Shown here one piece after another: positions 5,305-34,870 of a stretch of DNA of 64,000 bases (positions are counted from its first letter, which is position 1; each line of letters opens with the position of its first letter). The stretch comes from Lachnospiraceae bacterium (lineage in GTDB: Bacteria > Bacillota > Clostridia > Lachnospirales > Lachnospiraceae). Position numbers and translations under genes: made by a program. The stretch spans positions 1 through 64,000 of the forward strand of contig JAFRXK010000013.1 of NCBI GenBank assembly GCA_017442865.1. Reading direction: 5' to 3'. The notes beneath the pieces were generated by a model that was not told where the DNA came from, made no database searches, and worked only from the letters and a program-made list of their open reading frames with translations.

Positions 5305-5349
5305 AGGTCATCCCACAAAGGCGTGGAACGCAGCGTGGGGTGACTTTTT
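5305..5349 (+). promoter_or_regulatory. ANTAR-type antitermination leader of amt
   Basis: The stem CCAC/GTGG (5313-5316 and 5323-5326) closes hexaloop AAAGGC (5317-5322; A1, G4). The stem's 5' arm is also the top of the terminator arm GTCATCCCAC (5307-5316), which pairs with GTGGGGTGAC (5335-5344) and is followed by TTTTT. Hairpin and terminator are mutually exclusive. No convincing P1 hairpin or separate promoter was found, so the switch may act on transcripts reading through from glnN. Confidence 0.68.
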
Positions 5350-5382: not shown

Positions 5383-7179
5383 ATGACAGAAGAATTAACA
5401 AAATTATTAAACGAAGAAGTATTTGCAGTATGGTTTTTGATAGGCGCTGCCCTTGTATTCTGGATGCAGGCAGGCTTTGCAATGGTCGAGACCGGCTTTT
5501 CAAGAGCGAAAAACGCCGGCAACATTCTTATGAAAAACCTCATGGATTTCTGTATCGGATGCGTGGTTTTTATAGTTATAGGCTTCGGGCTTTTGCTCGG
5601 TGAAGACCTTTTCGGTTTTATCGGAAAGCCAGGCTTTGATATTTTTACAGGCTATGCAGAGTTTGACTGGTCAAATTTTATTTTCAACCTTGTATTCTGC
5701 GCAACAACCGCAACGATTGTATCAGGCGCAATGGCTGAGCGTACAAAATTCTTAAGCTACTGCGTATACTCCGGAATTATATCCGCGCTTATTTATCCGA
5801 TAGAGGCTCACTGGATCTGGGGCGGCGGCTGGCTTGCACAGCTTGGTTTTCATGATTTTGCAGGCTCCTGCGCAATTCATATGGTTGGCGGCATTTCAGC
5901 CTTAATCGGCGCTAAAATGGTCGGCGCACGAATCGGTAAATTTGAGAAGGACGATTCCGGCAAAATCACAAAGGTTAATGCCTTCCCGGGACATAATATA
6001 GTAATCGGCGCACTCGGCGTATTTATTCTCTGGCTTGGCTGGTACGGCTTCAACGGTGCTGCCTGCACATCAACACAGCAGCTCGCATCAGTTTTTGTAA
6101 CAACAACTATTGCTCCTTCAATCGCTACAGTAGTATGTATGGTATTTACATGGATTAAATACGGCAAGCCTGACGTTTCAATGTGTCTCAACGCATCCCT
6201 TGCAGGACTTGTTGCAATCACGGCAGGCTGTGATGTAACAGATGCCCTCGGTTCAATTATCATCGGCGCTGTTTCCGGACTTTTAGTTTGCTTCGGCGTA
6301 TGGTTCCTTGATTATAAGCTTCATATTGATGACCCTGTCGGCGCAGTTGCAGTACATATGGTAAACGGTATCTGGGGAACAATCGCTGTCGGTCTGTTTG
6401 CAACAACCTCTGCTCCGGGCAATGACAGCATCATCGGCCTGTTTTACGGCGGCGGATTTAAACAGCTGGGTATTCAGTTATTAGGCTTTGTAAGTGTTGC
6501 GGCATGGACATCCGTATGTATGATTTTAGTATTTTTACTTATCAAGGCTGTATTCGGTCTGAGAGTAAGCGAGGAAGAGGAAATTGAAGGTCTTGATGTT
6601 AAAGAGCATGGTCTTACATCAGCCTACGCAGGCTTTTCAATTGTCGATATGACCGGCTCTGCCCTTCTTGCAAATGAAAATACAAGCCTTGGGGTATCTG
6701 ATTATGAAAAGGCGTCTAACGCCATGATTAATGCAGCTGTTCCTGTTGAAATCGCTTCCGCATATATCGGCGGAGCACATCTTGCCGAAGAAATAAGCCA
6801 CGAAGCAAGAGCAGACTTTGAGACCGGAATGCATAAGGTAGTAATCATTACAAAGCTGTCCAGATATGACAAGATTAAAAAGGCCCTCAACGAACTTGGA
6901 GTTACCGGAATCACAGTTACACAGGTTATGGGCTGCGGTATCCAAAAGGGTGCCGGTCAGATGTATCGTGGAGTTGAGATGGACATCACACTGCTTCCGA
7001 AAATCAAGCTTGAGGTTGTTGTCAGCAACATCCCTGTAGACAGCGTAATCGAAGTCGCAAAGAAAACTCTTTACACCGGCAAAATCGGTGATGGAAAAAT
7101 ATTTGTATATCCTGTCAGCCGTGTTGTTAAAATCAGAACAGGCGAAGAAAACTTTGCGGCATTGCAGGATGTAGAATAA
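5383..7179 (+). CDS. amt: Ammonium channel Amt fused to a PII regulatory domain
   Basis: Ammonium channel of the inner membrane joined to its own regulator. Residues 1-400 are Amt, with AGFAMVETGFSRAKN, the twin-histidine pore residues in AIHMVGG and AVHMVNGIWG, and about 11 hydrophobic helices. A linker of about 80 residues leads to a PII (GlnK) domain from about residue 484 (MHKVVIITKLSRYDKIK) to the end, including the QKG motif and TGKIGDGKIFV nucleotide-binding B-loop. The residue matching uridylylated Tyr51 of GlnK is Met (RGVEMDIT), so control is probably by ATP/ADP/2-oxoglutarate binding only. The protein is 598 residues, starts at an ATG after GGAGG, and sits behind the leader at 5305. 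Confidence 0.95.
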   Translation: MTEELTKLLNEEVFAVWFLIGAALVFWMQAGFAMVETGFSRAKNAGNILMKNLMDFCIGCVVFIVIGFGLLLGEDLFGFIGKPGFDIFTGYAEFDWSNFIFNLVFCATTATIVSGAMAERTKFLSYCVYSGIISALIYPIEAHWIWGGGWLAQLGFHDFAGSCAIHMVGGISALIGAKMVGARIGKFEKDDSGKITKVNAFPGHNIVIGALGVFILWLGWYGFNGAACTSTQQLASVFVTTTIAPSIATVVCMVFTWIKYGKPDVSMCLNASLAGLVAITAGCDVTDALGSIIIGAVSGLLVCFGVWFLDYKLHIDDPVGAVAVHMVNGIWGTIAVGLFATTSAPGNDSIIGLFYGGGFKQLGIQLLGFVSVAAWTSVCMILVFLLIKAVFGLRVSEEEEIEGLDVKEHGLTSAYAGFSIVDMTGSALLANENTSLGVSDYEKASNAMINAAVPVEIASAYIGGAHLAEEISHEARADFETGMHKVVIITKLSRYDKIKKALNELGVTGITVTQVMGCGIQKGAGQMYRGVEMDITLLPKIKLEVVVSNIPVDSVIEVAKKTLYTGKIGDGKIFVYPVSRVVKIRTGEENFAALQDVE

Positions 7180-7201: not shown

Positions 7202-8584
7202 ATGAGTTTTTATAACGATGACAAATTACATGAGGAATGCGGAGTGTTCGGAATATACGCTCCAAAAGGTGAAAATATTGTGCATGATATTTACTGCGGT
7301 CTTACTGCCCTCCAGCACAGAGGGCAGGAGTCCGCAGGACTTTCTGTTTCTGACACAGCCGGCGCAAAGGGCAATATTTCTACCAAAAAAGGAATGGGGC
7401 TTGTAAGCGAGGTTTTTGGGCATGACGATTTCGACAAACTGAATGGAAATATCGGCGTCGGTCATGTGCGTTATTCAACAACCGGTGAAAGCGTTCCCGA
7501 AAACGCCCAGCCCATTGCCATGAATTATATTAAAGGCAGTCTCGCGCTTGTCCACAATGGTAATATCACAAATGCCTCAGAATTAAAAGAAGCGCAGATG
7601 TACCGCGGGCAGGCGCATTACACTTCAACCGATTCTGAGGTTTTAGCGTATGAAATTATAAGCAGCAGGGCAAAAACAGATTCCATAGAAGAGGCAGTCC
7701 TTGACGCCGCCGGGAAAATACGCGGCGGGTACGCCGTAATCGTTATGAGTCCGAGAAAGCTTACAGGCATAAGGGACCCTTACGGAATAAAGCCTCTTAT
7801 CTTAGGTATGCGAAATGGCAGTTACATTTTAGCATCGGAAAGCGCCGCCATAGAAGCCGTCGGAGGTAAAATCATAAGAGACATTGAGCCCGGCGAGATA
7901 ATAACCATAAGCCGGGATGGTATAAAAAGCAATACGAAGCTGTGCGGCATGAAACACGCCCATTGTGTATTTGAATATATTTATTTTGCAAGATGCGACT
8001 CTGTCATAGACAAAATCGCAGTATATGACGCAAGATTTAACGCCGGACGCGCACTTGCGAAAAGCTCCGTTGTTGACGCTGATATTGTCGTGGGCGTTCC
8101 TGATTCGGGGCTTATTGCAGCACAGGGCTATGCGATGGAATCCGGAATCCCTTTTGCGCTTGCTTTTCATAAGAACAGTTATATCGGACGAAGCTTTATC
8201 AAACCGACTGATGAGGAGCGTAAAAGTGCGGTTCATATGAAGCTTAGCGTGCTTAAAAATGTTGTTGCCGGCAAAAAAATTGTGCTTATAGATGATTCAA
8301 TTGTGCGAGGCACGACCATGAAGCAGATTATAGAAATGCTACGTGAAGCGGGAGCTTTGGAGGTTCATGTAAGAATAAGCTCGCCTCCGTTTTTGTACCC
8401 GTGCTACTATGGTACAGACGTACCAAACAGCAGCCAGCTTATTGCATCAGAGCATTCGGACGAATATGTACGACAGAAGATAGGCGCGGATTCATTATGC
8501 TATCTTAAAATAACCGATTTTAAGTCAATGACGGGTAATCTGCCGTTATGCAGCGCCTGCTTTGATAATAATTATCCTGTTTAA
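7202..8584 (+). CDS. purF: Amidophosphoribosyltransferase
   Basis: First committed step of purine synthesis: PRPP plus glutamine gives phosphoribosylamine. The 460-residue protein has a short propeptide before the nucleophile in EECGVFGIY (Cys14), the QHRGQESAG glutaminase motif, and the PRPP loop VLIDDSIVRGTTM. Cysteines in HAHCVFEYIYFAR, YPCYYGTD and LCSACF match the iron-sulfur ligands of the Bacillus-type enzyme. It starts 22 bp after amt with a CAGGAG ribosome binding site, so it is probably in the amt transcript. Purine genes are not usual partners of amt; here the enzyme is a major glutamine consumer placed among nitrogen genes. Confidence 0.95.
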   Translation: MSFYNDDKLHEECGVFGIYAPKGENIVHDIYCGLTALQHRGQESAGLSVSDTAGAKGNISTKKGMGLVSEVFGHDDFDKLNGNIGVGHVRYSTTGESVPENAQPIAMNYIKGSLALVHNGNITNASELKEAQMYRGQAHYTSTDSEVLAYEIISSRAKTDSIEEAVLDAAGKIRGGYAVIVMSPRKLTGIRDPYGIKPLILGMRNGSYILASESAAIEAVGGKIIRDIEPGEIITISRDGIKSNTKLCGMKHAHCVFEYIYFARCDSVIDKIAVYDARFNAGRALAKSSVVDADIVVGVPDSGLIAAQGYAMESGIPFALAFHKNSYIGRSFIKPTDEERKSAVHMKLSVLKNVVAGKKIVLIDDSIVRGTTMKQIIEMLREAGALEVHVRISSPPFLYPCYYGTDVPNSSQLIASEHSDEYVRQKIGADSLCYLKITDFKSMTGNLPLCSACFDNNYPV

Positions 8585-8593
8585 AATTTTTTC

Positions 8594-8622
8594 TTGACTT
8601 TTTATAAGAACAGACGTATTAT
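8594..8622 (+). promoter_or_regulatory. Promoter of the gltB-gltD-carA-carB operon
   Basis: TTGACT (8594-8599), 17 bp, TATTAT (8617-8622). Transcription would start near 8629, immediately before the P1 hairpin of the antitermination leader. Confidence 0.65.
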
Positions 8623-8631: not shown

Positions 8632-8718
8632 TGTCAATGGAGACAGTATATATTCAGTTTATATTTTTGTTTTAAAAGCAATGGCGCTTTAAGTTAAGAA
8701 CTTAAAGCGCCTTTTTTT
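8632..8718 (+). promoter_or_regulatory. Two-hairpin ANTAR antitermination leader of gltB
   Basis: P1 is TGTC/GACA (8632-8635, 8642-8645) closing hexaloop AATGGA (8636-8641). P2 is AAAGC/GCTTT (8675-8679, 8686-8690) closing hexaloop AATGGC (8680-8685). Both loops have A1 and G4, the residues known to contact ANTAR proteins. The 3' arm of P2 is part of the terminator stem 8683-8695, which pairs over 13 bp with 8699-8711 and is followed by seven T (8712-8718). This is the classic design in which ANTAR binding to P1-P2 prevents the terminator. It is the clearest of the three leaders in the window. Confidence 0.85.
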
Positions 8719-8752
8719 ATTTTTCAACGGCAAAAAACGAGGAGGAATATCT

Positions 8753-11700
8753 ATGTCAGGTCAATTTGAAAACATTCAGGCAAAAGGTTTATATAATTCC
8801 GGCTTTGAGCATGATAATTGCGGAATAGGTGCAATTATTGATATTGAGGGCAGAAAAAGCCACAAAATAGTTTTTGACGCCCTGTCCATTGTAGAAAATC
8901 TTGAACACAGGGCCGGTAAGGATGCGGAAGGCAAAACCGGCGACGGCGTTGGTATCCTGACGCAGATTCCACACAGGTTTTTTGTCAAAAAATTAAAAGA
9001 ACAGGGCGTTACTCTTCCTGGCGAAAGGCAGTATGGAGTGGGAATGTTTTTCTTCCCGCAAAATGAGCTTGACCTGCGGCAGGCAAAATCCATGTTTGAG
9101 ATTATCGTAAGAAAAGCCGGACTTAATCTTATTGCATGGAGAAGGGTTGACTCAAATCCTGAGGTTTTAGGCAATAAAGCAAGAGAATGCATGCCGTCCA
9201 TTTATCAGGTGTTTATAGAGAGACCGAAGCACATTCAAAAGGATGTAGATTTTGACAGAATGCTTTATATTGTCCGCAGGGAATTTGAGCAAAGCAGCGT
9301 AAATACCTACATTCCTTCTCTTTCCTGCAGAACGATAGTTTATAAGGGAATGTTCCTTGTCGGCCAGCTCAGAACATTTTTCACCGACCTTATGGATGAG
9401 GACTATGAGTCTGCAATCGCAATGGTACATTCACGCTTTTCAACCAACACTGCGCCAAGCTGGAACAGGGCGCATCCTAACCGCCTGATAGTCCACAATG
9501 GTGAAATCAACACGATAAAGGGCAACGCCGACAAAATGCTTGCAAGAGAAGAAACCATGCATACCGGCATGTTCACCGAGGAAGACATGACAAAGGTGCT
9601 TCCTGTTATTTCGCAGAGCGGCTCTGATTCCGCAATGCTTGACAACACACTTGAATTTCTTGTAATGAGCGGCCTTGACCTTGCGCTTGCCGCAATGATT
9701 ACAATCCCTGAGCCTTGGGCGCACAATGAAACCCTGTCCATGGAGGAGCGCGATTTCTATCAGTACTACGCTACCATGATGGAGCCTTGGGATGGTCCGG
9801 CGTCTATCCTTTTCTCAGACGGAGATGTCATGGGCGCAATTCTTGACCGCAACGGACTTCGCCCGTCAAGATATTATGTGATGGATGACAACAGGCTTAT
9901 TTTATCGTCGGAAGCAGGCGTTCTGCCGCTTGATGAAGCTCATATTATTAAAAAAGAGCGTCTCCATCCGGGTAAAATTCTGCTGGTTGACACATTACAG
10001 AAGCGAATAATATATGATAATGAAATAAAAGAAAAATATGCGGGCAAGGAGCCTTACGGAGAATGGCTTGACAGCAATCTTCTTAAGCTTTCTGACATCC
10101 GCATTCCGAACAAAAAAATACCTGCGCTTACAGGAGATATGCTTAAAAAGCTGCAAAAAGCCTTCGGATACACCTGGGAAAACTACCATGACAGCATTTT
10201 GAGCATGGCGCTTAACGGCACTGAAGCTATCGGCTCTATGGGAGTAGACACGCCTATCGCCGCCCTCTCCGAAATGTATCAGCCACTGTTTTATTATTTC
10301 AAGCAGCTGTTCGCACAGGTTACAAATCCGCCGATTGATGCGCAGCGTGAGGAAATCGTTACCTCCCACACCGTATACATCGGTAAAAACGGAAACCTGC
10401 TTGAGGAAAAGCCTGAAAACTGTCATGTGCTTAAAATTAACAATCCTATTCTTTCAGACCTTGACCTCTTAAAAATAGAGCATTTACAGAAGGACGGCTT
10501 CAAAACCGCAAAGGTATCTACTCTGTTTTACAAGAGCACCCCTATGAAGCGCGTGCTTAAGCATTTATTTGTGGAGGTTGACAAGGCTTATAAAGAAGGT
10601 GCAAATATAGTTATTCTGTCAGACCGCGGCGTGGATGAAAATCATGTTGCGCTTCCTTCGCTGCTTGCAGTCGCCGCAGTACACAAGCATCTTGTTGAAA
10701 CTAAAAAATGCACTGCGATGTCTCTGATACTGGAGTCCGGCGAGCCTAGAGAGGTGCATCATTTTGCAACGCTTTTAGGCTATGGCGCTTCTGCCGTCAA
10801 CCCTTATCTTGCGCACGCAACAATAGCGCAGCTTGTTGACAGCGAGCTTCTGGATAAAGATTATTACGCTGCCGCAGATGATTACGATAATGCAATCCTT
10901 TCAGGCATAGTTAAGATTGCCTCTAAAATGGGTATTTCCACGATACAGTCCTATCAGGGCAGCAAAATATTTGAGGCTATAGGAATTTCAGAAGACGTAA
11001 TCGACGATTATTTTACAGGCACCGTAAGCCGCGTAGGTGGCATAAGCCTTGATGATATCGGCAGGGCTGTTGATAAGCAGCACAGTCTGGCATTTGACCC
11101 GCTGGGTCTTTCAGTCAACCTTGAGCTTACCTCAGCCGGCAGGCACAAATCCAGAAGCCAGGGCGAAAACCACCGCTACAATCCTAAGACAATACATATG
11201 CTGCAGCTTTCCACGAGAGAGGGCAATTACGATAAATTTAAAGAATACACCGAAATGGTTGATTCGGAGAACACAGGCTACTTAAGAAGCCTGCTTGATT
11301 TCAACTATCCTGACCGGCAGATTCCTCTTTCAGAGATTGAAAGCGTGGAATCAATAGTGAAAAGATTCAAGACCGGCGCAATGTCCTATGGATCTATTTC
11401 GGAGGAGGCGCACCAGACACTTGCAATTGCAATGAATCATCTGCACGGAAAATCAAACAGCGGTGAGGGCGGTGAAAGCGAGGAGCGTATTTTATCTGCA
11501 GGAACCGATAATGACAGAAGCTCTGCAATCAAGCAGGTTGCAAGCGGAAGATTCGGCGTTACAAGCAGATATCTTGTAAGTGCAAAGGAAATCCAGATTA
11601 AGATGGCGCAGGGTGCAAAGCCTGGTGAAGGCGGACACCTTCCGGGCAAAAAGGTTTACCCGTGGATTGCAAAAACAAGGCACTCAACCCCGGGCGTCAG

Positions 11701-13303
11701 CCTGATATCGCCTCCGCCGCATCATGACATATATTCGATTGAGGACCTTGCACAGTTAATTTATGATTTAAAAAATGCAAATAAAAATGCGCGTATTTCT
11801 GTAAAGCTTGTGTCGGAGGCAGGAGTAGGTACTGTTGCCGCCGGAGTTGCAAAGGCGGGCGCCCAGGTAATACTTATATCAGGCTATGACGGCGGAACCG
11901 GAGCCGCACCGCTTAGCTCAATCCACAATGCAGGACTTCCGTGGGAGCTTGGCCTTGCGGAAACGCACCAGACGCTTATAGCAAACGGGCTTAGAAATCA
12001 GGTTGTGATTGAGACCGATGGAAAGCTTATGAGCGGCAGGGATGTGGCAATTGCAGCGATACTCGGTGCTGAGGAATTCGGCTTTGCTACTGCCCCGCTG
12101 ATTACAATGGGCTGCGCCATGATGAGGGTATGCCACAAGGATACATGTCCTATGGGCATCGCAACACAAAATCCCGAGCTTAGAAAGCGCTTTGCGGGCA
12201 AGCCTGAATACGTTGAAAATTTCATGATTTTTATTGCAAGGCAGCTTCGTGAAATAATGAGTCAGTTAGGTGTAAAATCAGTTGAAGAGCTGGTCGGAAG
12301 AACCGATTTGCTGAAGGTGCGAAAGGAGCTGTCGCAGGCAGGACAAAAGCTTAATCTTGACCGCATACTTATGGATATGTCAGGCACGGACAGGTCTCTT
12401 GCAACCTTCCATCCGCAGTTTGAATATGATTTTAAGCTTTCCGATACAAAGGATGAGAGCGTGCTTCTTTCATCAAAGGCAGTTAAAGCCTCATTGGACA
12501 AGGGCACTAAATCAGAGCTTTCAATTAATATACGAAATACAGACAGAACCTTCGGAACACTCCTCGGCGCTGAGATTACAAGAAAGCATCCAGAGGGTCT
12601 TGCCGATGACACAATAACCATAAACTGCAAGGGTACGGGCGGCCAGAGCTTCGGAGCCTTTATTCCTAAGGGGCTTTCCCTTAAGCTTTCGGGCGACAGC
12701 AACGATTACTTCGGCAAGGGTCTTTCGGGCGGAAAACTAATCATAAAGACGCCGGACGAGGCAAAATATGATGCACACGAAAATATTATTATCGGAAACG
12801 TTGCTCTTTACGGTGCAACATCCGGCGAGGCGTATATCGCCGGTATGGCGGGAGAAAGATTCTGCATCAGAAATTCCGGTGCTACTGCGGTTGTTGAGGG
12901 CGTCGGCGAGCATGGCTGCGAATATATGACCGGAGGATGCGTTGTTATTCTCGGTGCTACCGGCAAAAACTTCGCCGCCGGAATGAGCGGCGGCATCGCG
13001 TATGTGCTTGACGAGGACAACAGACTTTATAAGAATCTTAATAAGCACATGGTGAGCATGGAAAGCGTAACTCTTAAAGGTGATTTAGAAGAACTTAAAA
13101 GCATTATCAGCGACCATGTAAGGTATACAGGCTCTAAAAAAGGAGCCGAGATACTTGAGAATTTTGATAAATACATTCCTCATTTCAAGAAAATAATACC
13201 TACGGACTACAAGGAAATGCTCAGGCTTATCAAGAAAAATGAGGACCGTGGCGCTGATTATGAGCAGGCAAAAATAGAAGCCTTCAGAGAATTTATCGGT
13301 TAG
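8753..13303 (+). CDS. gltB: Glutamate synthase, large subunit
   Basis: Transfers the amide of glutamine to 2-oxoglutarate, giving two glutamates. The product has 1516 residues, full length for the bacterial alpha subunit. Cys23 in FEHDNCGIGA is the class II amidotransferase nucleophile exposed after propeptide removal. Further on are the FMN-binding synthase domain (GGEGGESEERIL near residue 907, ISGYDGGTGAAPLSS near 1045), the 3Fe-4S cysteines in CHKDTCPMGIATQ near 1127, and the C-terminal GXGXG beta-helix domain. The start follows GGAGGAAT. It is the first gene of a gltB-gltD-carA-carB operon behind the ANTAR leader. Confidence 0.97.
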   Translation: MSGQFENIQAKGLYNSGFEHDNCGIGAIIDIEGRKSHKIVFDALSIVENLEHRAGKDAEGKTGDGVGILTQIPHRFFVKKLKEQGVTLPGERQYGVGMFFFPQNELDLRQAKSMFEIIVRKAGLNLIAWRRVDSNPEVLGNKARECMPSIYQVFIERPKHIQKDVDFDRMLYIVRREFEQSSVNTYIPSLSCRTIVYKGMFLVGQLRTFFTDLMDEDYESAIAMVHSRFSTNTAPSWNRAHPNRLIVHNGEINTIKGNADKMLAREETMHTGMFTEEDMTKVLPVISQSGSDSAMLDNTLEFLVMSGLDLALAAMITIPEPWAHNETLSMEERDFYQYYATMMEPWDGPASILFSDGDVMGAILDRNGLRPSRYYVMDDNRLILSSEAGVLPLDEAHIIKKERLHPGKILLVDTLQKRIIYDNEIKEKYAGKEPYGEWLDSNLLKLSDIRIPNKKIPALTGDMLKKLQKAFGYTWENYHDSILSMALNGTEAIGSMGVDTPIAALSEMYQPLFYYFKQLFAQVTNPPIDAQREEIVTSHTVYIGKNGNLLEEKPENCHVLKINNPILSDLDLLKIEHLQKDGFKTAKVSTLFYKSTPMKRVLKHLFVEVDKAYKEGANIVILSDRGVDENHVALPSLLAVAAVHKHLVETKKCTAMSLILESGEPREVHHFATLLGYGASAVNPYLAHATIAQLVDSELLDKDYYAAADDYDNAILSGIVKIASKMGISTIQSYQGSKIFEAIGISEDVIDDYFTGTVSRVGGISLDDIGRAVDKQHSLAFDPLGLSVNLELTSAGRHKSRSQGENHRYNPKTIHMLQLSTREGNYDKFKEYTEMVDSENTGYLRSLLDFNYPDRQIPLSEIESVESIVKRFKTGAMSYGSISEEAHQTLAIAMNHLHGKSNSGEGGESEERILSAGTDNDRSSAIKQVASGRFGVTSRYLVSAKEIQIKMAQGAKPGEGGHLPGKKVYPWIAKTRHSTPGVSLISPPPHHDIYSIEDLAQLIYDLKNANKNARISVKLVSEAGVGTVAAGVAKAGAQVILISGYDGGTGAAPLSSIHNAGLPWELGLAETHQTLIANGLRNQVVIETDGKLMSGRDVAIAAILGAEEFGFATAPLITMGCAMMRVCHKDTCPMGIATQNPELRKRFAGKPEYVENFMIFIARQLREIMSQLGVKSVEELVGRTDLLKVRKELSQAGQKLNLDRILMDMSGTDRSLATFHPQFEYDFKLSDTKDESVLLSSKAVKASLDKGTKSELSINIRNTDRTFGTLLGAEITRKHPEGLADDTITINCKGTGGQSFGAFIPKGLSLKLSGDSNDYFGKGLSGGKLIIKTPDEAKYDAHENIIIGNVALYGATSGEAYIAGMAGERFCIRNSGATAVVEGVGEHGCEYMTGGCVVILGATGKNFAAGMSGGIAYVLDEDNRLYKNLNKHMVSMESVTLKGDLEELKSIISDHVRYTGSKKGAEILENFDKYIPHFKKIIPTDYKEMLRLIKKNEDRGADYEQAKIEAFREFIG

Positions 13304-13313: not shown

Positions 13314-14798
13314 ATGGGTAAGACAACAGGCTTTTTAGAATATGAACGAAAAGATGGCGCACAGAGAGAAGTCAGTGAAAGAATCAAGGATTTCCACGAG
13401 TTTCATGAGAGACTTTCTGCCGCCGATACCTGCATGCAGGCATCAAGATGTATGGACTGCGGAATACCTTTTTGTCAGGCAGGCACTATGATAAGCGGCA
13501 TGATGTCAGGCTGTCCTTTGCACAATGCTGTTCCTGAGATTAATGACCTTGTATACAAGGGAAGAATGGCTGAGGCTTATCAGAGACTTTCAATTACGCA
13601 CAGCTTTCCTGAGTTTACCTCCAGAGTGTGCCCGGCTCTCTGCGAAGCAGCATGCACATGCTCGCTTCATGGTCAGGCAGTCACCACGAAGGAAAACGAA
13701 AAGGCTGTCATTGAATATGCATATGAAAATAATCTTGTTAGTGAGATAACCCCTTCCATAAGAACCGGCAAAAAAATAGCAGTTGTCGGCAGCGGTCCTT
13801 CAGGTCTTGCTGCCGCACAGCTGCTAAACATGCGCGGTCACGAGGTTACTGTTTTTGAAAGGAAGGACCGCATTGGCGGACTGCTCAGATACGGCATACC
13901 AAATATGAAGCTTGATAAGTCCGTTATCGACAGACGCGTAGAGCTTATGGAGAAAGCCGGCGTTAAGTTTGTAGTAAACTCTGATATCGGGAGAAATGTA
14001 TCCTCTGAGGATTTACTCAAAAACTTCGACAGCGTCATTCTTGCCTGCGGTGCCTCACATGCACGAGATATTAATGCACCCGGACGCGACGCCAAGGGAA
14101 TATATTTTGCAGTTGATTTTTTAAGCACGGTTACAAAAAGACTGCTTGATTCAGATTTTAAGGACTATCCTCTTGATCTGGTAAAGGACAGGGATGTGGT
14201 TGTAATAGGCGGCGGCGACACCGGCAATGACTGCGTTGGAACCTGCATAAGACTGTCGGCAAAAAGCGTTACCCAGCTTGAAATGATGCCTATGCCTTCC
14301 ACAGGCAGACTTCCTTCAAATCCATGGCCGGAATGGCCAAGGGTCTTAAAAACGGACTATGGCCAGGAGGAGGCAATCTATAAATTCGGCAGCGATCCGA
14401 GAATATACCAGACAACGGTTAAGGAATTTATAAAGGATGAGAACGGAGCGCTTAAGGAATTACTTCTGGTTTCCCTCTCACCTAAAAAGGATGCCAAAAC
14501 CGGCAGAACCATTATGTCCGAGGTTGAAGGCTCAGAGCGTAAAATTCCTGCACAGCTCGTTCTTATAGCAGCAGGCTTTTTAGGCAGCGAGCAGTATGTA
14601 ACCGAAAGCTTCGGCGTAGAAACAGACAACAGGACAAATGTTAAGACCAAGGCAGGCGAACACGCCACCACCAAAGCAAGGGTATATACGGCGGGCGATA
14701 TGCACATCGGCCAGTCCTTAGTTGTCCGCGCAATCGCAGAGGGCAGAAGCGTTGCACGTGAAGTTGATAAAGCATTAATGGGTTATACAAATTTATAG
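13314..14798 (+). CDS. gltD: Glutamate synthase, small subunit
   Basis: Supplies electrons from NAD(P)H to GltB through FAD and 4Fe-4S clusters. The 494-residue protein has the N-terminal cluster cysteines CMQASRCMDCGIPFC and CPALCEAAC, an FAD-binding GSGPSGLAAAQLL near residue 160 and a second dinucleotide motif VIGGGDTGNDCVG near residue 300. It starts 10 bp after gltB, with TAGGAG as ribosome binding site. It differs from the NfnB protein at 52803, a related fold that partners an FNR-type subunit. Confidence 0.96.
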   Translation: MGKTTGFLEYERKDGAQREVSERIKDFHEFHERLSAADTCMQASRCMDCGIPFCQAGTMISGMMSGCPLHNAVPEINDLVYKGRMAEAYQRLSITHSFPEFTSRVCPALCEAACTCSLHGQAVTTKENEKAVIEYAYENNLVSEITPSIRTGKKIAVVGSGPSGLAAAQLLNMRGHEVTVFERKDRIGGLLRYGIPNMKLDKSVIDRRVELMEKAGVKFVVNSDIGRNVSSEDLLKNFDSVILACGASHARDINAPGRDAKGIYFAVDFLSTVTKRLLDSDFKDYPLDLVKDRDVVVIGGGDTGNDCVGTCIRLSAKSVTQLEMMPMPSTGRLPSNPWPEWPRVLKTDYGQEEAIYKFGSDPRIYQTTVKEFIKDENGALKELLLVSLSPKKDAKTGRTIMSEVEGSERKIPAQLVLIAAGFLGSEQYVTESFGVETDNRTNVKTKAGEHATTKARVYTAGDMHIGQSLVVRAIAEGRSVAREVDKALMGYTNL

Positions 14799-14811: not shown

Positions 14812-15888
14812 ATGAATTATAATCGGAAATTAATATTGGAAGACGGAAGCGAATATTTCGGGTATGGCTTTGGCAGCAGCAAAGAGGCTGTATGTGAGAT
14901 TGTATTTAACACTTCCATGACAGGATATCAGGAGATTATTTCAGACCCCTCATACACTGACCAGGCGGTTGTCATGTCATATCCTCTCATAGGCAACTAT
15001 GGAATCGCAAATGAAGACTTTGAAAGCAAATATATCACTCCGTCAGCGCTTATTATAAGAGACTTAAATGACGCCCCATCTAATTTCAGGGCGGCAAGAA
15101 CACTGTCTGAGCTTTTAGAGGAGAACAATATTCCCGGAATATATGGCGTAGACACCAGAAAGCTTGTCAGAAGCATCCGTGATTTAGGCTCAAGAAGAGT
15201 GCTTATTACCGATATTGATACTTCGCTTGAAGCCGGTCTTGAAATTATCAGGCAAACGCCGGTTCCTCATGACGCGGTCAAAAGATGCAGCTGCACAAAA
15301 AAGTGGTACAGCAGGACTTCAAACCCGCGCTTTAATGTTGTGGCAATAGACTGCGGCATGAAATCAAACATTGTCAGACTGCTTAACCGCCATAAATGCA
15401 ATGTTACTGTTGTTCCATACAATACATCCGGAGAAGAAATTCTCTCTTTGAAGCCTGACGGGGTCTTCATTTCAAACGGTCCCGGAAATCCTGAGGACCT
15501 GCCTGAGGTTGTGGAAACGCTTAAGTTTCTTAAGGGCACAGTCCCGCTTTTCGGAATATGCTTAGGACACCAGCTTATCGCCCTTTCCTATGGGGCAAAA
15601 ACCTATAAGCTTAAGTTCGGACACAGGGGCGGCAACCATCCGGTTAAAAACCTGCTTACAGGCAAAATAGAAATAACGAGCCAGAACCACAGCTATGCGG
15701 TAGATGATAAGTCCCTTCCGGGCACTGAGCTTACCGCATCTCACATTAATATACTGGACAATACTATTGAGGGTGTCTATTGCAAAAAGGACAAGGTGTT
15801 TTCGGTGCAATACCACCCGGAGAGCGCACCCGGCCCACAGGACAGCACTTATCTGTTTGAGCAGTTTATTGAATTGATGAAAAAGTAA
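14812..15888 (+). CDS. carA: Carbamoyl-phosphate synthase, small (glutaminase) chain
   Basis: Hydrolyses glutamine and channels ammonia to CarB for carbamoyl phosphate, used for pyrimidines and arginine. The 358-residue protein has the CarA N-terminal domain (NTSMTGYQEIISDPSY) and a class I amidotransferase domain with nucleophile Cys in FGICLGHQ near residue 249 and catalytic His-Glu in YHPES near residue 334. It begins 14 bp after gltD and ends 16 bp before carB, so it belongs to the gltBD transcript. Confidence 0.96.
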   Translation: MNYNRKLILEDGSEYFGYGFGSSKEAVCEIVFNTSMTGYQEIISDPSYTDQAVVMSYPLIGNYGIANEDFESKYITPSALIIRDLNDAPSNFRAARTLSELLEENNIPGIYGVDTRKLVRSIRDLGSRRVLITDIDTSLEAGLEIIRQTPVPHDAVKRCSCTKKWYSRTSNPRFNVVAIDCGMKSNIVRLLNRHKCNVTVVPYNTSGEEILSLKPDGVFISNGPGNPEDLPEVVETLKFLKGTVPLFGICLGHQLIALSYGAKTYKLKFGHRGGNHPVKNLLTGKIEITSQNHSYAVDDKSLPGTELTASHINILDNTIEGVYCKKDKVFSVQYHPESAPGPQDSTYLFEQFIELMKK

Positions 15889-15903: not shown

Positions 15904-18900
15904 ATGCCAAAGCGAACCGATATTAAAAAAGTTCTTGTAATAGGCTCCGGTCCGATAGTTATCGGACAGGCTGCCGAATTTGATTATGCAGGTACTCAGG
16001 CGTGTCTCGCATTAAAGGAAGAGGGCTATGAGGTAATTCTGGCAAACTCAAATCCTGCCACTATTATGACCGACCACTCCATTGCCGATAAGGTTTACAT
16101 GGAGCCTCTTACACTTGAATACATTGCGCGAATCTGCCGCTATGAAAGACCGGATGCGATAATTCCGGGCATAGGCGGTCAGACTGGCTTAAATCTTGCA
16201 ATGCAGCTTTATGACAAGGGCGTTCTTGATGAATGTGAAATTGAGCTGCTCGGCACTGATGCAAAAAGCATAAAAAAAGCAGAGGACAGAGAGCAGTTTA
16301 AGGAGTTATGCGAGCAGCTTGGCGAGCCGGTCGTGCCATCAAGTATTACCTTCAGCGTTGAAGAGGGCCTTGCAGCCGCTAAGGCTATAGGCTACCCTGT
16401 TATTTTGCGTCCTGCCTTTACGCTCGGCGGCACAGGCGGCGGCTTTGCATACAACGAGGAGGAAATGGCTGAAATGATGAAGCATGCGCTTTCACTTTCA
16501 CCCGTCCATCAGGTTCTCGTTGAAAAAAGCATTAAAGGCTACAAGGAAATTGAATATGAGGTTATGCGTGACGCAAATGACACCGCGCTTATCGTATGTA
16601 ACATGGAAAATCTTGACCCTGTAGGAATCCACACGGGCGATTCAATTGTAGTAGCCCCAAGCCAGACATTAACCAACAAAGAATATCATATGCTCCGCGA
16701 CAGTGCGCTTAATATTATCCGTGCGCTAGAGGTTAAGGGCGGCTGCAATGTGCAGTTTGCGCTTGACCCGGAATCGTTTGATTATTATGTAATAGAAGTA
16801 AATCCACGAGTTTCAAGGTCCTCGGCGCTTGCTTCAAAGGCAAGCGGCTACCCGATAGCGCGCGTATCCGCAAAAATTGCCGTCGGCATGAACCTTGATG
16901 AAATTGCCCTCGCAAATACTCCTGCGTGCTTTGAGCCGGCGCTTGATTATGTAGTTACAAAGATGCCAAGATTTCCTTTTGATAAATTTACTCTTGCATC
17001 AAACAGGCTTTCTACACAGATGAAGGCCACCGGAGAAACCATGAGCATCGGCAGAACCATGGAGGAAAGCCTGCTTAAGGCAATTCGTTCCCTTGAAGAC
17101 GGCAAAAACCACATTCATCTTGCAAAATTTGATATAAAAAACCTTTCAGATAAGCCTGAGCCGCAAAACCGCATGGAAGCAGTCGAAAAGCTTCTTAAAT
17201 ATATTGAAGAAGGCACTGACGACCGCATTTACGCAATCTCGGAGCTTTTGTGGCTGGGCGCGGATTTATCTGTCATATACTCCAGAACAAAGATTGATAT
17301 GTTCTTTTTGGACAAAATTAAAAAGATTGTTGACTTTGAGAAAAAACTTGAACAGGCTTCATTTAAAAATGAAGCTGCTACTGCTGTCCTTGAACGCAGC
17401 CTTTTATACGATGCCAAACGAATGGGTTTTTCGGATTCGTATATCGCTGAGCTTACAGGCTGTGTCGAGGATGATATCTGGACATTAAGAAAAAAGTACG
17501 ATATTTTCCCGGTATACAAGATGATTGATAGCTGTGCCAGCGAATTTAAAAGCTATATACCATACTTTTATTCAACCTATGAGGATGAAAATGAATCAAA
17601 AGTTTCCCGAAACAAAAAAATTATTGTTCTTGGCTCCGGTCCGATAAGAATCGGACAGGGCGTGGAATTTGATTATTCCACGGTACATGCAGTTAAAACA
17701 ATTCATGAAATGGGTTATGAGGCAATCGTAATAAACAACAACCCCGAAACAGTGTCAACTGATTACACTACCGCCGACAAATTGTATTTTGAACCTCTTA
17801 CAGTAGAGGATATCATGAATATTATCAGGCTGGAAAATCCTCTTGGCGTCATTGCATCTCTCGGCGGGCAGACCGCAGTAAACCTCGCGCAGCCCCTTCA
17901 GAAAAGAGGCGTTAAAATCATAGGCACATCCCCGGAGGCAATATTTGCGGCTGAGGACAGGGATGCCTTTGAGCATATAATTGAAACCCTTCAGATTCCG
18001 CATCCGAAGGGCGTTGCGGTAACAAACATTCCTGACGGAATACAGGCTGCCGCACGTATCGGCTATCCGGTGCTTGTAAGACCAAGCTTTGTGCTCGGCG
18101 GACGTGCCATGGAAATAGTGGCTAACGAGGACATGCTGGTAAAATACCTTAAAAATGCTGTTGAGGTTGACCAGTCAAGACCGGTGCTTGTAGATAAATA
18201 TATCGTCGGTAAGGAAGTCGAGGTTGATGCAATATGTGATGGTAAGGACGTATTTTTACCGGGTATTATGGAGCTTGTTGAAAGAACCGGCGTACATTCA
18301 GGCGACAGCACCAGCGTCTACCCGCCGTTTTCAATATCCGATAAGGTCAAGCAGACCATTATCGACTACACACAAAAGCTCGGTACCGGTATTGGAATTA
18401 TAGGTCTTTACAATATACAGTTTATCGTTGATAATGATGAAAATGTATATATAATTGAGGTAAATCCGCGTGCCTCCAGAAGTGTACCATTCCTTTCAAA
18501 ATCTACGGGAGTATCTCTTGTGGATATTGCAACCAAAGTTATGCTTGGAATAAGTCTTAAAGAACAAGGCTTTACGCAGACTATATTGCCTGAAAAGGAT
18601 TTCTGGTATGTAAAGGCTCCTGCATTTTCATTTGAGAAGCTTAACGGCATGGACGCCTATCTTTCGCCTGAGATGAAGTCCACCGGCGAGGCAATCGGTT
18701 ATGATACCAGCTTAAAGAGGGCATTTTACAAGGCACTGCAGGCATCAGGTATCAAAATGAAGGAATACGGAACTGTAATAGTTACTCTTGCCGACGAAGA
18801 TAAAGAAGAGGCGCTTCCATTAGTGCAGAGGTTTTATAACCTGGGCTTTAATATCGAAGCTACTATCGGTACCGGTCAGTTTTTAAAGCAGCACGGTATC

Positions 18901-19143
18901 AAAACACGTATCCGCGGCAAGATAAGCGACGGCAGCGAGGAAATTCTTGATTCCATAAGAGCGGGCTATGTCAGTTATATAATAAATACCAGGGCAATTC
19001 TTTCAGGAATACATTATGAGGATGGCGCAGCAATAAGAAGATGTGCTATAATGAATGGTGTAACTATGTTTACGTCACTTGACACGGTAAAAATTCTGCT
19101 GGACGTACTTGAGGATATCACTCCGGGTATATCCACAATATAG
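15904..19143 (+). CDS. carB: Carbamoyl-phosphate synthase, large chain
   Basis: Makes carbamoyl phosphate from bicarbonate, ammonia and two ATP. The 1079-residue length is normal. Two homologous halves each begin with an ATP-grasp module: KVLVIGSGPIVIGQAAEFDYAG near residue 8 and KIIVLGSGPIRIGQGVEFDYS near residue 570. A C-terminal MGS-like allosteric domain starts near residue 940. The ATG follows GGAGG. It is the last gene of the operon. It is followed by a cluster of 38-bp repeats and a GC-rich hairpin rather than a classical U-tailed terminator, so some read-through to the next gene is possible. Confidence 0.97.
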   Translation: MPKRTDIKKVLVIGSGPIVIGQAAEFDYAGTQACLALKEEGYEVILANSNPATIMTDHSIADKVYMEPLTLEYIARICRYERPDAIIPGIGGQTGLNLAMQLYDKGVLDECEIELLGTDAKSIKKAEDREQFKELCEQLGEPVVPSSITFSVEEGLAAAKAIGYPVILRPAFTLGGTGGGFAYNEEEMAEMMKHALSLSPVHQVLVEKSIKGYKEIEYEVMRDANDTALIVCNMENLDPVGIHTGDSIVVAPSQTLTNKEYHMLRDSALNIIRALEVKGGCNVQFALDPESFDYYVIEVNPRVSRSSALASKASGYPIARVSAKIAVGMNLDEIALANTPACFEPALDYVVTKMPRFPFDKFTLASNRLSTQMKATGETMSIGRTMEESLLKAIRSLEDGKNHIHLAKFDIKNLSDKPEPQNRMEAVEKLLKYIEEGTDDRIYAISELLWLGADLSVIYSRTKIDMFFLDKIKKIVDFEKKLEQASFKNEAATAVLERSLLYDAKRMGFSDSYIAELTGCVEDDIWTLRKKYDIFPVYKMIDSCASEFKSYIPYFYSTYEDENESKVSRNKKIIVLGSGPIRIGQGVEFDYSTVHAVKTIHEMGYEAIVINNNPETVSTDYTTADKLYFEPLTVEDIMNIIRLENPLGVIASLGGQTAVNLAQPLQKRGVKIIGTSPEAIFAAEDRDAFEHIIETLQIPHPKGVAVTNIPDGIQAAARIGYPVLVRPSFVLGGRAMEIVANEDMLVKYLKNAVEVDQSRPVLVDKYIVGKEVEVDAICDGKDVFLPGIMELVERTGVHSGDSTSVYPPFSISDKVKQTIIDYTQKLGTGIGIIGLYNIQFIVDNDENVYIIEVNPRASRSVPFLSKSTGVSLVDIATKVMLGISLKEQGFTQTILPEKDFWYVKAPAFSFEKLNGMDAYLSPEMKSTGEAIGYDTSLKRAFYKALQASGIKMKEYGTVIVTLADEDKEEALPLVQRFYNLGFNIEATIGTGQFLKQHGIKTRIRGKISDGSEEILDSIRAGYVSYIINTRAILSGIHYEDGAAIRRCAIMNGVTMFTSLDTVKILLDVLEDITPGISTI

Positions 19144-19144: not shown

Positions 19145-19243
19145 GTAAAATGCAGTCCGCTGCATTTTACCTTAAGCTTATCAATTAGTGCAGTCCGCTG
19201 CATTTTACCTTAAGCTTATCAATTAGTGCAGTCCGCTGCATTA
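19145..19243. repeat. 38-bp tandem repeat after carB
   Basis: Units at 19151-19188 and 19189-19226, with a partial third from 19227. Each starts TGCAGTCCGCTGCATT, a small hairpin. With the flanking GTAAAA, the first forms an 11-bp stem (19145-19155 with 19160-19170) with a TCCG loop. No T-run follows, so termination here would be weak. Confidence 0.85.
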
Positions 19244-19267
19244 GTTAATCAATAGTATCAAATATCC

Positions 19268-19291
19268 GGGCGGCTGCGTCCGCAGCCGCCC
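19268..19291 (+). promoter_or_regulatory. GC-rich hairpin in the leader of the GS-like gene
   Basis: GGGCGGCTGCG (19268-19278) and CGCAGCCGCCC (19281-19291) form an 11-bp perfect stem, 27 bp before the ATG at 19319. A short T-run (ATTTTT) comes about 10 bp later, which is far for a terminator. It could be a weak attenuator or an RNA stabiliser. It lacks the A1/G4 hexaloop of the other leaders. Confidence 0.5.
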
Positions 19292-19318: not shown

Positions 19319-20494
19319 ATGATATATACGTTTGAAGATGTAATGAAATATATTGAAGAGGAGGGTGCAAAGTTTATCAGGCTTGCATTCAGGGATGCTT
19401 ACGGCGTGCAGAAGAATATTTCCGTTATGCCGGATGAGCTGAAAAAGGTATTTGACGACGGCGCATCCATTAATGCTCACAATATTGCAGGCTTTAGCAA
19501 CTGTCCTTATTCACTGCTCTATTTAAGACCTGACCCTTCTACACTTACAATTCTTCCGTGGAGACCTGACAGCGGCAAGGTTATGAGAATGTTCTGCGAC
19601 GTATATACGCCGGATGGTGAAATATACGAGGCTGACACAAGAGCAATTCTTAAAAAGGCAATTGAAAAGGCTGACGCCGCAGGCATTAAATTCAGGTTTG
19701 GCTCCGAAAGCGAGTTTTATCTTTTTAAGAAGGATGATGACGGCAACCCGACTAAAATTCCTTATGATGAGGCAGGATATATGGATATCGCTCCTGCCGA
19801 CAGATGCGAAAATATAAGACGTGAAATCAGTCTGACTATTGAGAGGATGGGACTTACTCCTGAAAGATCTCACCATGAAAGAGGTCCGGGACAGAATGAA
19901 ATTGATTTTCACTATGGCAAGCCATTAAAGGCGGCCGACCAGATGACTACCTTTAAGATGGTTGTAAGCACATTGGCAGACAGATACGGTCTTGTTGCAG
20001 ACTTCTCTCCTATGCCGCTTTACGGCAAGCCTGGAAATGGTTATCATATTAATATTTACGCCGTTGATAATGAGGGCAATGATGTTGTAAAATATGCCGC
20101 TGCAGGCATTATCAATAGAATAAGAGACATTACATTGTTTTTAAATCCTACAGACGCTTCATATTCAAGGCTTGGAAGCAATACTGCGCCTGACAGGGTT
20201 GACTGGTCAAATGCAGGCAGGTCCGAATTAATGTATATCGAAACATACAAGGGAAAAACCCGCGCCGAGCTTCGCTCGCCGGATGCATCCAGCAATCCTT
20301 ACCTTGTATACGCATTATTAATCCATGCCGGGCTTGAGGGCATTGAGAAAAAACTTCTGCTTACTGATGAAGCAGATGCAGACATAGCAAGTCTGCCGGG
20401 CTCGCGCAAGGAAGCAGGCAAGCTCGCTATGGAAAGCGAATTTATAAACAGCATTATTCCTGATGACATTATCAGAGAGTATACCGGATATTAA
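19319..20494 (+). CDS. Short divergent glutamine-synthetase-like protein beside the ANTAR regulator
   Basis: Belongs to the GSI fold but is only 391 residues against about 440-470 for true GlnA. Retained are the metal-binding GSESEFYLF near residue 130, SHHERGPGQNEIDF near residue 185, and the GNGYHIN histidine and ELRSPDASSNPY arginine. Missing are the DGSSIEG loop (here NAHNIAGF) and the flap glutamate (GYEAP in GlnA, here SNTAP). It may therefore be a different gamma-glutamyl ligase or a non-synthesising sensor. A true GSIII lies at 3169, so it is not needed for glutamine supply. It lies 72 bp before the ANTAR gene, an arrangement known from clostridial glnA-nitR pairs. Enzymatic role unproven. 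Confidence 0.85.
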   Translation: MIYTFEDVMKYIEEEGAKFIRLAFRDAYGVQKNISVMPDELKKVFDDGASINAHNIAGFSNCPYSLLYLRPDPSTLTILPWRPDSGKVMRMFCDVYTPDGEIYEADTRAILKKAIEKADAAGIKFRFGSESEFYLFKKDDDGNPTKIPYDEAGYMDIAPADRCENIRREISLTIERMGLTPERSHHERGPGQNEIDFHYGKPLKAADQMTTFKMVVSTLADRYGLVADFSPMPLYGKPGNGYHINIYAVDNEGNDVVKYAAAGIINRIRDITLFLNPTDASYSRLGSNTAPDRVDWSNAGRSELMYIETYKGKTRAELRSPDASSNPYLVYALLIHAGLEGIEKKLLLTDEADADIASLPGSRKEAGKLAMESEFINSIIPDDIIREYTGY

Positions 20495-20566
20495 TATGAT
20501 TCTGATGCAGTAGAAACATTTTCACTACTATTTGTGCTGCCGTCCTACGGCGGAATGGAGTTAATT

Positions 20567-21154
20567 ATGGCAAACAGCGTAGACAGACACAACTCAATAC
20601 TGATAGTTTCCGGCTCTGAACAATTTGATGCTGTTGTCAGAAACTCTTTGCCGCAAAAGGATTTTGCTGCAATTGATTTCCGCAAGACCGCAAGCTCCGG
20701 AAGGCGTACCCTGCTCGAACGGTATTATGATATAGTACTTATCAATGCTCCGCTTCAGGACGAGATAGGCTATGACCTTGCAATGGATATTGCAGAGCAT
20801 GGCAACGCATCAATATTAATTGCTGTACCGTCTGAGATTTACGAGGATGTCCTGGAGTATGTAACCGACCATGGTATTCTTGTGATTTCCAAGCCGCTGG
20901 CTCACGGAATCGTCAACAAATCAATACGATTTCTTCTTGCTGCACAGGACAGAATTCATAAGCTTGAGTGCCGGATTCGCTCTGCAGAGGAAAAATTAGA
21001 AGAAACCAGAATTGTAGATAAAGCAAAATTTATGCTCGTTGAGCAGAAGCATATCTCTGAGGACGAGGCCCACCGCTTTATAGGTAAACAGGCGATGAAT
21101 CACGGCGTGTCAAGAAAAAGAATTGCACAGAGAATTATTGACGAGCTGGAGTGA
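20567..21154 (+). CDS. ANTAR-domain antiterminator with degenerate receiver domain
   Basis: RNA-binding regulator of 195 residues. Residues 1-120 fold as a response-regulator receiver, but the acidic pair after strand 1 is absent (ILIVSGSEQ) and the phosphoacceptor position is Asn (IVLINAPLQ). The conserved Lys remains in ISKPL. Residues 125-195 form a coiled coil and the three-helix ANTAR domain (KFMLVEQKHISEDEAHRFI, then KRIAQRIIDELE). ATG at 20567 follows ATGGAG. It presumably binds the hexaloop leaders of asnB, amt and gltB and stops termination when nitrogen is scarce. Control is more likely by protein contact, for example with the adjacent GS-like protein, than by phosphorylation. Confidence 0.92.
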   Translation: MANSVDRHNSILIVSGSEQFDAVVRNSLPQKDFAAIDFRKTASSGRRTLLERYYDIVLINAPLQDEIGYDLAMDIAEHGNASILIAVPSEIYEDVLEYVTDHGILVISKPLAHGIVNKSIRFLLAAQDRIHKLECRIRSAEEKLEETRIVDKAKFMLVEQKHISEDEAHRFIGKQAMNHGVSRKRIAQRIIDELE

Positions 21155-21257
21155 ACCGGAGTGAATCGGAGTGAACCGGAGTGAATCGGAGTGAACCGAA
21201 GTGAATCGGAGTGAACCGAAGTAAGCCGGAGTAAGTCAGAGTAAACTTGAGTGAACC
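21148..21257. repeat. 10-bp tandem repeat (11 copies) over the ANTAR stop codon
   Basis: Eleven consecutive 10-mers of the form GGAGTGAAYC begin inside the last codons of the ANTAR gene, so copy 1 supplies the TGA stop. Copies alternate between AACC and AATC endings, giving a 20-bp higher-order period, and decay toward the distal end. Confidence 0.95.
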
Positions 21258-33281: not shown

Positions 33282-34721
33282 TTAATATGCCTTGCCCCAG
33301 TATACCATCTTCTTTGCAGGCTTGCCGCATACAGGACATACATCTGAAATGATCTTCTGTTCAAACGGCATACATCTTGAGGTAACACCTGCGTCCTCTT
33401 TTATCTTAAGCTCGCACTCTAAATCGCCGCACCACATCATCTTTATAAAGCCAGGCTTATTTGCTGCGATATCCTTAAACTCTTCATAAGTTGCTGCCTC
33501 GTAAGTATTTTCTTCAACATGTGCCTTTGCGCGTGCAAGCATATCAGCCTGCATAGTCTCAAGAATTTCTTTTGTCTTCTCTGCAATTTCATCAAGTGAT
33601 ACAACTGTCTTTTCTCTTGTATCGCGTCTTACGATAACTGCCTGATTCTGCTCGATATCCTTCGGACCTATTTCAACACGCAGCGGAATACCTCTCATCT
33701 CCTGCTCGCTGAATTTCCAGCCCGGACTCTTGTCTGTATCATCAGTCTTTACGCGAATGCCTGCTGCCTTAAGCACAGCCTCAAGCTCGGCTGCCTTTTC
33801 AAGCACGCCCTCCTTACGCTGCTGAATCGGAATAACCATTACCTGTGTAGGTGCAATTCTCGGTGGAAGCACCAGACCGCTGTCGTCGCCGTGTACCATG
33901 ATAATTGCGCCGATAATACGTGTTGAAAGTCCCCATGATGTCTCATGCACATACTGGAGCTTGTTGTCCTTGTCTGAGTACTGTATGTCAAATGCCTTTG
34001 CAAAGCCGTCACCAAAGTAATGGCTTGTGCCCGACTGCAGCGCCTTGCCGTCATGCATAAGCGCCTCGATTGTATACGTTGCCTCAGCACCCGCAAACTT
34101 CTCCTTGTCAGTCTTCTGACCCTTGATTACCGGAATAGCAAGCACCTCTTCGCAGAAATCAGCGTATACATTTAACATCTGCTTTGTACGTGCTATTGCC
34201 TCCTCGGCTGTAGCATGAATTGTATGACCCTCCTGCCATAAAAATTCTGCCGAGCGAAGGAATGGTCTTGTGGTCTTCTCCCATCTCATAACAGAGCACC
34301 ACTGGTTATACACCTTCGGCAAATCCCTGTAGGACTGAACAATCTTTGAGAAGAAATCACAGAATAATGTCTCTGATGTAGGACGAATGCACAGACGCTC
34401 CTGCAATGTCTCAAGACCTCCCTGCGTAACCCACGCAACCTCAGGCGCAAAGCCCTCAACATGGTCCTTTTCCTTCTGAAGAAGGCTCTCAGGAATAAGC
34501 ATCGGCATATATACATTCTCAACGCCTGTAGCCTTAAAGCGCGCATCCAGCTCCTTCTGGATATTTTCCCAGATAGCGTATCCGTCAGGTCTGATAATCA
34601 TACAGCCCTTTACACCTGAATAATCAACAAGCTCTGCCCGAAGTACAACGTCCGTGTACCACTGGGCAAAATCTTCACTCATTGAAGTGATGGATTCAAC
34701 TAATTTTTTTTCCTTTGCCAT
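33282..34721 (-). CDS. proS: Prolyl-tRNA synthetase (archaeal/eukaryal type, ProS3)
   Basis: Charges tRNA-Pro with proline. The 479-residue length, lack of the INS editing domain and a C-terminal zinc-binding-like segment ([18 protein letters not shown]) place it in the type 3 group. Motif 2 region [22 protein letters not shown] is near residue 150. The start is MAKEKKLVE at 34721 with GGAG upstream; the longer in-frame reading to 34817 runs into the inverted repeat of the leader. Expression is controlled by a T-box upstream (34914-35144), so the gene is induced when tRNA-Pro is uncharged. Confidence 0.95.
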
Positions 34722-34747
34722 AACTAAAACTCCTTTTTTATTTACTG

Positions 34748-34870
34748 AGCAATTGCCAGATTGTTTTTTAAATATTGAATAAATATTATATCCTCGCAAG
34801 CTCCCTAAAGAAGTCACTTGCTGAGGATATAATATTTATTCAATTCAAAGTAACAATCAATGCAATTGCT
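34748..34870. repeat. 123-bp inverted-repeat element in the proS leader
   Basis: A 21-bp core, TTGAATAAATATTATATCCTC (34775-34795), has its exact complement at 34823-34843. Outward, ATTGTT/AACAAT and AGCAATTGC/GCAATTGCT (34748-34756, 34862-34870) extend the pairing. It lies between the T-box terminator and the proS start, so transcripts that pass the T-box would carry a large hairpin. MITE insertion is the simplest reading. Confidence 0.75.

Follow-up and report, generated by a model that had tools for sequence, protein, structure and literature searches.

The DNA analyzed here, a 64-kb stretch referred to below as the window, comes from a draft genome of 2.77 Mb that has Lachnospiraceae, Butyrivibrio among them, as its nearest named relatives. 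A run of genes on its forward strand begins with an asparagine-synthase-like gene (asnB-like, 1440-3089) and a type III glutamine synthetase gene (GSIII, 3169-5268), and continues through a fusion of the ammonium transporter AmtB with the PII domain GlnK (5383-7179), purF (7202-8584), gltB (8753-13303), gltD (13314-14798), carA (14812-15888) and carB (15904-19143). It ends with two adjoining genes that are the subject of this work: one for a 391-residue protein resembling glutamine synthetase (GS-like, 19319-20494), which we propose as a sensor, and one for an ANTAR protein with a pseudo-receiver domain (20567-21154, likely starting at the ATG at 20567). The latter is the only gene with an ANTAR domain in the whole 2.77-Mb genome. 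Besides the GS-like gene, the genome encodes GSIII twice, with the other copy lying on contig C85.

The first-pass annotation of this locus had argued that a cell equipped with GSIII has no need of the GS-like protein. GSIII is indeed present, and in two copies, but the argument does not discriminate: GSIII occurs in 149 of 150 genomes of the host family, including those with an intact type I glutamine synthetase (GSI). Since GSIII is also found beside intact GSI, its presence alone is no proof of GS-like inactivity, and we dropped the idea that GSIII makes the GS redundant and hence dead.

Repeats are found at several points in the window. The gap between carB and the GS-like gene (19151-19290) contains 2.4 copies of a 38-base repeat with TGCAG-TCCG-CTGCA hairpins, and forms a strong GC-rich hairpin ahead of the GS-like start (folding z of -8.4 against shuffles). 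Longer tandem repeats occur at 35216-35487 (66 bases, 4.2 copies) and 37501-37643 (73 bases, 2.0 copies), the second covering the 3' end of a bioY-like gene, and the host genome seems prone to tandem duplications. Right after the ANTAR gene, at 21148-21257, lie 11 copies of a 10-base repeat that would form seven overlapping 4-bp hairpins, each with the hexaloop AGTGAA (A1, G4). This array has the look of a decoy RNA for the ANTAR protein, a role that we dropped because the array is absent from relatives.

The GS-like protein and its ANTAR neighbor

Judged by its model, the GS-like protein is a GSI fold. Pfam finds both Gln-synt_N and Gln-synt_C, the alignment with GSI spans the length of the protein (about 284 bits against the P. 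polymyxa GS), and the AlphaFold model (pLDDT 90) superimposes on GSI structures with a TM score of 0.94. It scores only 274.9 bits with the NCBIfam GlnA model TIGR00653, under the cut-off of 429. A distant match is lengsin, a GS-like protein of the lens (PDB 2j9i). The alignment stops ahead of the C-terminal thong, the element of GSI that joins the two hexamer rings, and related short GS-likes measure 389-439 residues, compared with 441-445 for 12 full-length family GSs.

With residues numbered as in the S. typhimurium GS, the window protein carries N for D50, P for N264, T for E327 and Y for R344, and its flap is one residue shorter. It retains E129, E131, E212, E220, G265, H269, R321, R339, E357 and R359, a set that includes all six metal ligands and the glutamate arginines R321 and R359. 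The original description of a 391-residue GS-like protein without the DGSSIEG loop and the flap glutamate, but with ligands for metal and glutamate, is thus borne out. We scored 15 active-site positions in 102 short GS-likes against the 12 full-length family GSs and two solved GSs. Among the 102, E131, E212, E220, G265, H269, R321 and R359 are retained in all or all but one, with E131, G265, H269, R321 and R359 present in every protein; together they make up the n1 metal site and the residues holding the amino acid. N264 is gone from all 102, the flap glutamate E327 is absent from 96, and at least one n2 metal ligand is missing from 15. The shorter flap is found in 100 of 100 measurable short GS-likes and 0 of 12 full-length GSs. 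The short proteins form one clade (support 100/100) on a long stem of 0.72 changes per site, and the full-length family GSs make a separate clade. Within the 38-member subclade of the window protein, D50, E327 and R344 are lost in 38/38 and R339 is lost in 35, the window protein being one of those that keep it. Outside this subclade, GS-likes retain D50, R339 and R344, and for the most part the metal ligands.

Loss of E327 and D50 is no proof of inactivity, since GlnA4 and PauA7 are active gamma-glutamyl-amine ligases that lack both (PMC6529630), and we dropped these two losses as a proof on their own. The ADP-phosphate arginine R344 is present in both ligases (PMC6529630), so its loss is the better argument for inactivity in the window subclade. 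With D50, N264, E327 and R344 all lost, the protein is conserved yet very probably no glutamine synthetase, in keeping with the earlier reading of it as a pseudo-GS.

The neighboring protein is recognized by the Pfam ANTAR model (56.3 bits, cut-off 27.3), and its receiver domain scores 21.5 bits with Response_reg, under the cut-off of 30.2. The best solved structural matches of its model are EutV with RNA, Rv1626, and AmiR from the AmiC-AmiR complex. The receiver fold and the beta5 Lys-Pro are retained. The phosphoacceptor position holds Asn60 and a Ser-Gly replaces the acidic pair, in line with the first-pass annotation, which had noted the Asn and the lack of an acidic pair. Across 36 ANTAR partners the conservation of Asn60 reaches at least 90%, and the acidic pair is missing across the partner clade. 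Partners of the full-length family GSs have Cys, Ser or Gly at this position and never Asp, and thus the whole GS-ANTAR lineage in the family seems not to use phosphorylation. From these substitutions we conclude that the receiver is very probably not phosphorylated, which upholds its designation as a pseudo-receiver.

Pairing of the two genes is conserved across genomes, a check that had been proposed for this locus and that we carried out. The short GS-like gene is followed directly by an ANTAR gene in every one of the 22 family genomes that we examined, and at 78 of 79 loci in named genomes outside those 22, drawn from Lachnospiraceae, Oscillospiraceae, Christensenellaceae and other families of Clostridia. 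Conversely, a GS gene stands directly upstream of ANTAR at 29/29 loci of relatives retrieved by an ANTAR search. In other genera a full-length GS sits in the same position beside the ANTAR gene, and a GS homologue of some kind was detected in 130 of the 150 family genera sampled. GS and ANTAR distances correlate at 0.83 (0.73 with GSIII distances removed), although genetic linkage alone could explain much of this correlation.

No natural GS-ANTAR fusion was seen among the relatives examined. One long ANTAR frame that we took up as a candidate proved to be a CTP synthase-ANTAR fusion. Such fusions, in which the glutamine-using CTP synthase (PyrG) carries a C-terminal ANTAR domain, occur in five genera of the family (L247:2125-3873 in genome G015, and also L249, L252, L253 and L254; Pfam CTP_synth_N, GATase and ANTAR). 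In two genomes, G015 and G055, the search of family genera matched no GS homologue. PyrG-ANTAR is possibly another glutamine-enzyme input to ANTAR control.

Hexaloop leaders upstream of nitrogen genes

The earlier proposal that this pair acts on RNA is supported by leaders in which a hexaloop hairpin competes with a terminator ahead of nitrogen genes, and which are the predicted targets of the ANTAR protein. The first leader (all leader elements are on the + strand) begins with a promoter, TTGACA-17-TAGACT (1328-1356), whose -10 element ends 11 nt before the hairpin AAGGC[AATGGC]GTCTT (1368-1383), upstream of the asnB-like and GSIII genes. An intrinsic terminator with a following T-run (1376-1403) is mutually exclusive with this hairpin. 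The asnB-like gene is the first gene after the leader. A second promoter, TTGACT-17-TATTAT (8594-8622), serves the gltBD-carAB-GS-like-ANTAR run. Here a P1-like hairpin, TGTC[AATGGA]GACA (8632-8645), precedes by 29 nt the P2 hairpin AAAGC[AATGGC]GCTTT (8675-8690), which is in turn mutually exclusive with an intrinsic terminator followed by T7 (8683-8711). Both AATGGC-loop hairpins overlap the 5' arm of their terminator. Shuffled 64-kb windows yielded 0 or 1 such site each, and folding places short leader transcripts in the hairpin and longer ones in the terminator. A diverged candidate leader of amtB-glnK (5306-5349) also combines a hairpin, a terminator and a T-run; its hairpin, CCAC[AAAGGC]GTGG (5313-5326), shares its CCAC with the terminator stem (5306-5344). 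This candidate was not recovered by our R1 and R2 model searches.

A strict scan of the window for the dual-hexaloop motif gave no match, and the leaders were found after the scan was loosened to a single hairpin with a terminator. Rfam returned no meaningful match on the leaders. Its only match in the window is a T-box leader elsewhere (34935-35137, - strand), which precedes a prolyl-tRNA-synthetase-like open reading frame (33282-34817, - strand).

In relatives, the leader element is found before gltB at about 9 of 16 loci, before amtB at 9 of 16 and before GSIII at 10 of 29. Across 22 aligned leaders the core C[AANGGC]G is invariant except for N, and both of the mutually exclusive helices covary far above shuffles and slid controls. 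Pairing holds in 95.5% of cells for the hexaloop hairpin, both sides being changed in 19 cells, and in 96.2% for the terminator, both sides being changed in 61. A covariance model from whose training the window sequences were left out finds, in the 2.77-Mb genome, strong + strand sites only at 8673-8724 (E 8.3e-9) and 1366-1416 (E 6.1e-7); its remaining matches in the window comprise two weak ones and the opposite strands of these sites, which are palindromic. Most of its best matches in other genomes precede GSIII, gltB, amtB, asnB-like, purF or carA. Matches also precede a glutamate-dehydrogenase-like open reading frame, which was identified by eye, and an aminotransferase-like one (loci L241 in G105 and L245 in G042), pointing to a broader regulon in some genera. 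More than 20 genomes, many of them with a full-length GS, have a match on the same strand about 200 nt or less upstream of GSIII. The occurrence of GSIII leaders in so many full-length-GS genomes implies that the target set either predates the degenerate GS or does not depend on it.

Most leaders have a single hexaloop right after the promoter and do not match the dual motif. In 20 of 28, a TTGACA-16/17-TATAAT promoter lies so close upstream, ending 8-12 nt from the hairpin, that a first hexaloop would not fit. The gltB leader of the window, with its two hexaloops, is an exception.

A candidate glutamine sensor and its rivals

We favor a nitrogen antitermination switch of the NitR type in which the GS partner has turned into a catalytically dead sensor, and give this reading a probability of roughly 0.6. 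On the asnB/GSIII, gltBD-carAB and probably amtB-glnK transcripts, the ANTAR protein would bind a single AANGGC hexaloop at the 5' end, and by steadying the hairpin would block the overlapping terminator and let the nitrogen genes be read. The GS-like protein would take glutamine (or glutamate) into its retained pocket and act on the ANTAR protein through direct contact, most likely keeping it inactive at high glutamine and letting it go as glutamine falls. Sequence comparison lends strong support to the loss of GS catalytic residues with the ligand pocket kept, a receiver that would not be phosphorylated in the usual way, the obligate pairing, and the predicted hairpin/terminator leaders. Contact between the proteins and the nature of the ligand we infer from the precedents of AmiC-AmiR and NasS-NasT, of the GS that holds GlnR, and of NitR. 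The sign of control is taken from NitR, which acts on nitrogen limitation, and is a guess for the window system. As the presumably dead GS-like protein almost always sits beside an ANTAR protein with nitrogen genes as its predicted targets, it is probably that protein's glutamine sensor. Whether a GS lineage as a whole became an amino-acid sensor gating an ANTAR protein on single 5'-terminal hexaloops, before real nitrogen-assimilation genes, we regard as an even bet.

Several observations cut against a sensor switch, and they are best weighed along with the rival explanations. The main rival holds that the GS-like protein works as an ATP-dependent gamma-glutamyl ligase on some amine other than ammonia, and has no more than an operon in common with the ANTAR regulator. 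GlnA4 and PauA7 are active despite the same losses of E327 and D50 (PMC6529630), the window protein keeps its six metal ligands and glutamate arginines, and GS-likes outside its subclade keep R339 and R344, along with D50 and most metal ligands. Yet both of those ligases keep the R344 that the window subclade has lost throughout, along with most of its R339, and their flap loops are larger, where those of the GS-likes are shorter. At least one n2 metal ligand is missing from the 15 of 102 GS-likes noted above, and the neighboring genes are for ammonium assimilation, with no amine-catabolism genes nearby. Thus we consider a ligase unlikely overall, and least likely for the window subclade.

Slightly less probable still is that the ANTAR protein acts alone, regulated by its amount, by the GlnK of the AmtB-GlnK fusion or by a ligand of the pseudo-receiver, and that the GS-like protein has some other role. 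A GlnK domain is encoded in the same cluster, the leader can occur in family genomes without a detectable GS homologue, and five genera fuse ANTAR to CTP synthase instead. Against this, the short GS-like gene hardly ever occurs without an ANTAR neighbor, and it is a GS, full-length, that holds the same place in other genera. That the receiver takes its phosphate on a different residue, or from a small-molecule donor, which would make the protein an ordinary EutV-like two-component antiterminator, is very improbable: the receiver fold and beta5 Lys-Pro are kept, but the Asn acceptor and missing acidic pair are clade-wide, and partners of full-length GSs also lack the Asp. EutV bears on the sensor switch in another way, as its antitermination requires two hexaloops, one sufficing for binding (PMC8934654), and most leaders here have one.

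Known systems and significance

In Clostridium saccharobutylicum the GS gene presumably adjoins the NitR ANTAR gene, and in the family examined here an ANTAR gene likewise adjoins a GS gene. NitR, like the predicted window regulator, is an ANTAR antiterminator of ammonium-assimilation genes, the window targets being predicted GS, GOGAT and ammonium genes. Unlike the normal full-length enzyme beside NitR, however, the window GS partner is degenerate and short, the GS under predicted control is GSIII, and the leaders mostly have one 5'-terminal hexaloop. Lengsin is non-catalytic; the window protein would resemble it in having a GS fold without GS activity, but lengsin has no known link to any RNA-binding regulator. 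NitR is reported to induce GS/GOGAT genes on nitrogen limitation (PMC6316151), and NitR with glnA in C. saccharobutylicum is described there after Stutz et al. 2007; a C. thermocellum NitR homologue appears in PMC4676874. In these papers on NitR we found no sensing role for its GS partner.

The closest precedents for a partner that senses are AmiC-AmiR and NasS-NasT, where the ANTAR protein is held by a protein that binds a ligand; NasS, a binding protein, retains its ligand residues (PMC3795266). The proposed pair resembles them in joining a ligand-binding protein to an ANTAR protein, by a putative contact, and our ANTAR model has AmiR among its best structural matches. It differs in its candidate sensor, which has the fold of a GS enzyme where theirs are binding proteins of the periplasmic type. 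The first-pass annotation had instead compared the pair to GlnA and GlnR. That analogy is useful as a precedent for a GSI fold that serves as the glutamine sensor of a regulator, but AmiC-AmiR and NasS-NasT, combined with NitR, are closer. In Bacilli, feedback-inhibited GS controls GlnR and TnrA and holds GlnR with its E flap and D50 loop (PMC9249791), both of which are remodeled in the GS-like protein; there the GS is active and the regulators bind DNA, whereas here a degenerate GS would partner an RNA-binding protein. EutV shares with the window system the ANTAR fold and a hexaloop with A1 and G4 that overlaps a terminator (PMC3369931, PMC8934654). It is phosphorylated and uses two hexaloops, in contrast to the receiver and most of the leaders described here.

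NitR and a link between ANTAR proteins and nitrogen are already known. New within the literature searched are a partner clade made up of degenerate GSs and the mapped, mostly single-hexaloop leaders in Lachnospiraceae; our search, which covered open papers, found no GS pseudoenzyme described as the partner of an ANTAR protein. If correct, the proposed switch would give ANTAR proteins a third type of ligand sensor, one derived from an enzyme of the controlled pathway, and would mean that one hexaloop is enough for ANTAR antitermination. It bears on what signal NitR-type ANTAR proteins receive and on the sufficiency of a single hexaloop, and provides a testable circuit with a candidate sensor, a regulator and mapped predicted RNA targets. 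Lachnospiraceae and related Clostridia are major bacteria of the gut and rumen, and their nitrogen sensing is poorly described in the papers we found. In these bacteria, the switch would show how an enzyme can become a pure sensor while the leaders that it probably serves stay conserved.
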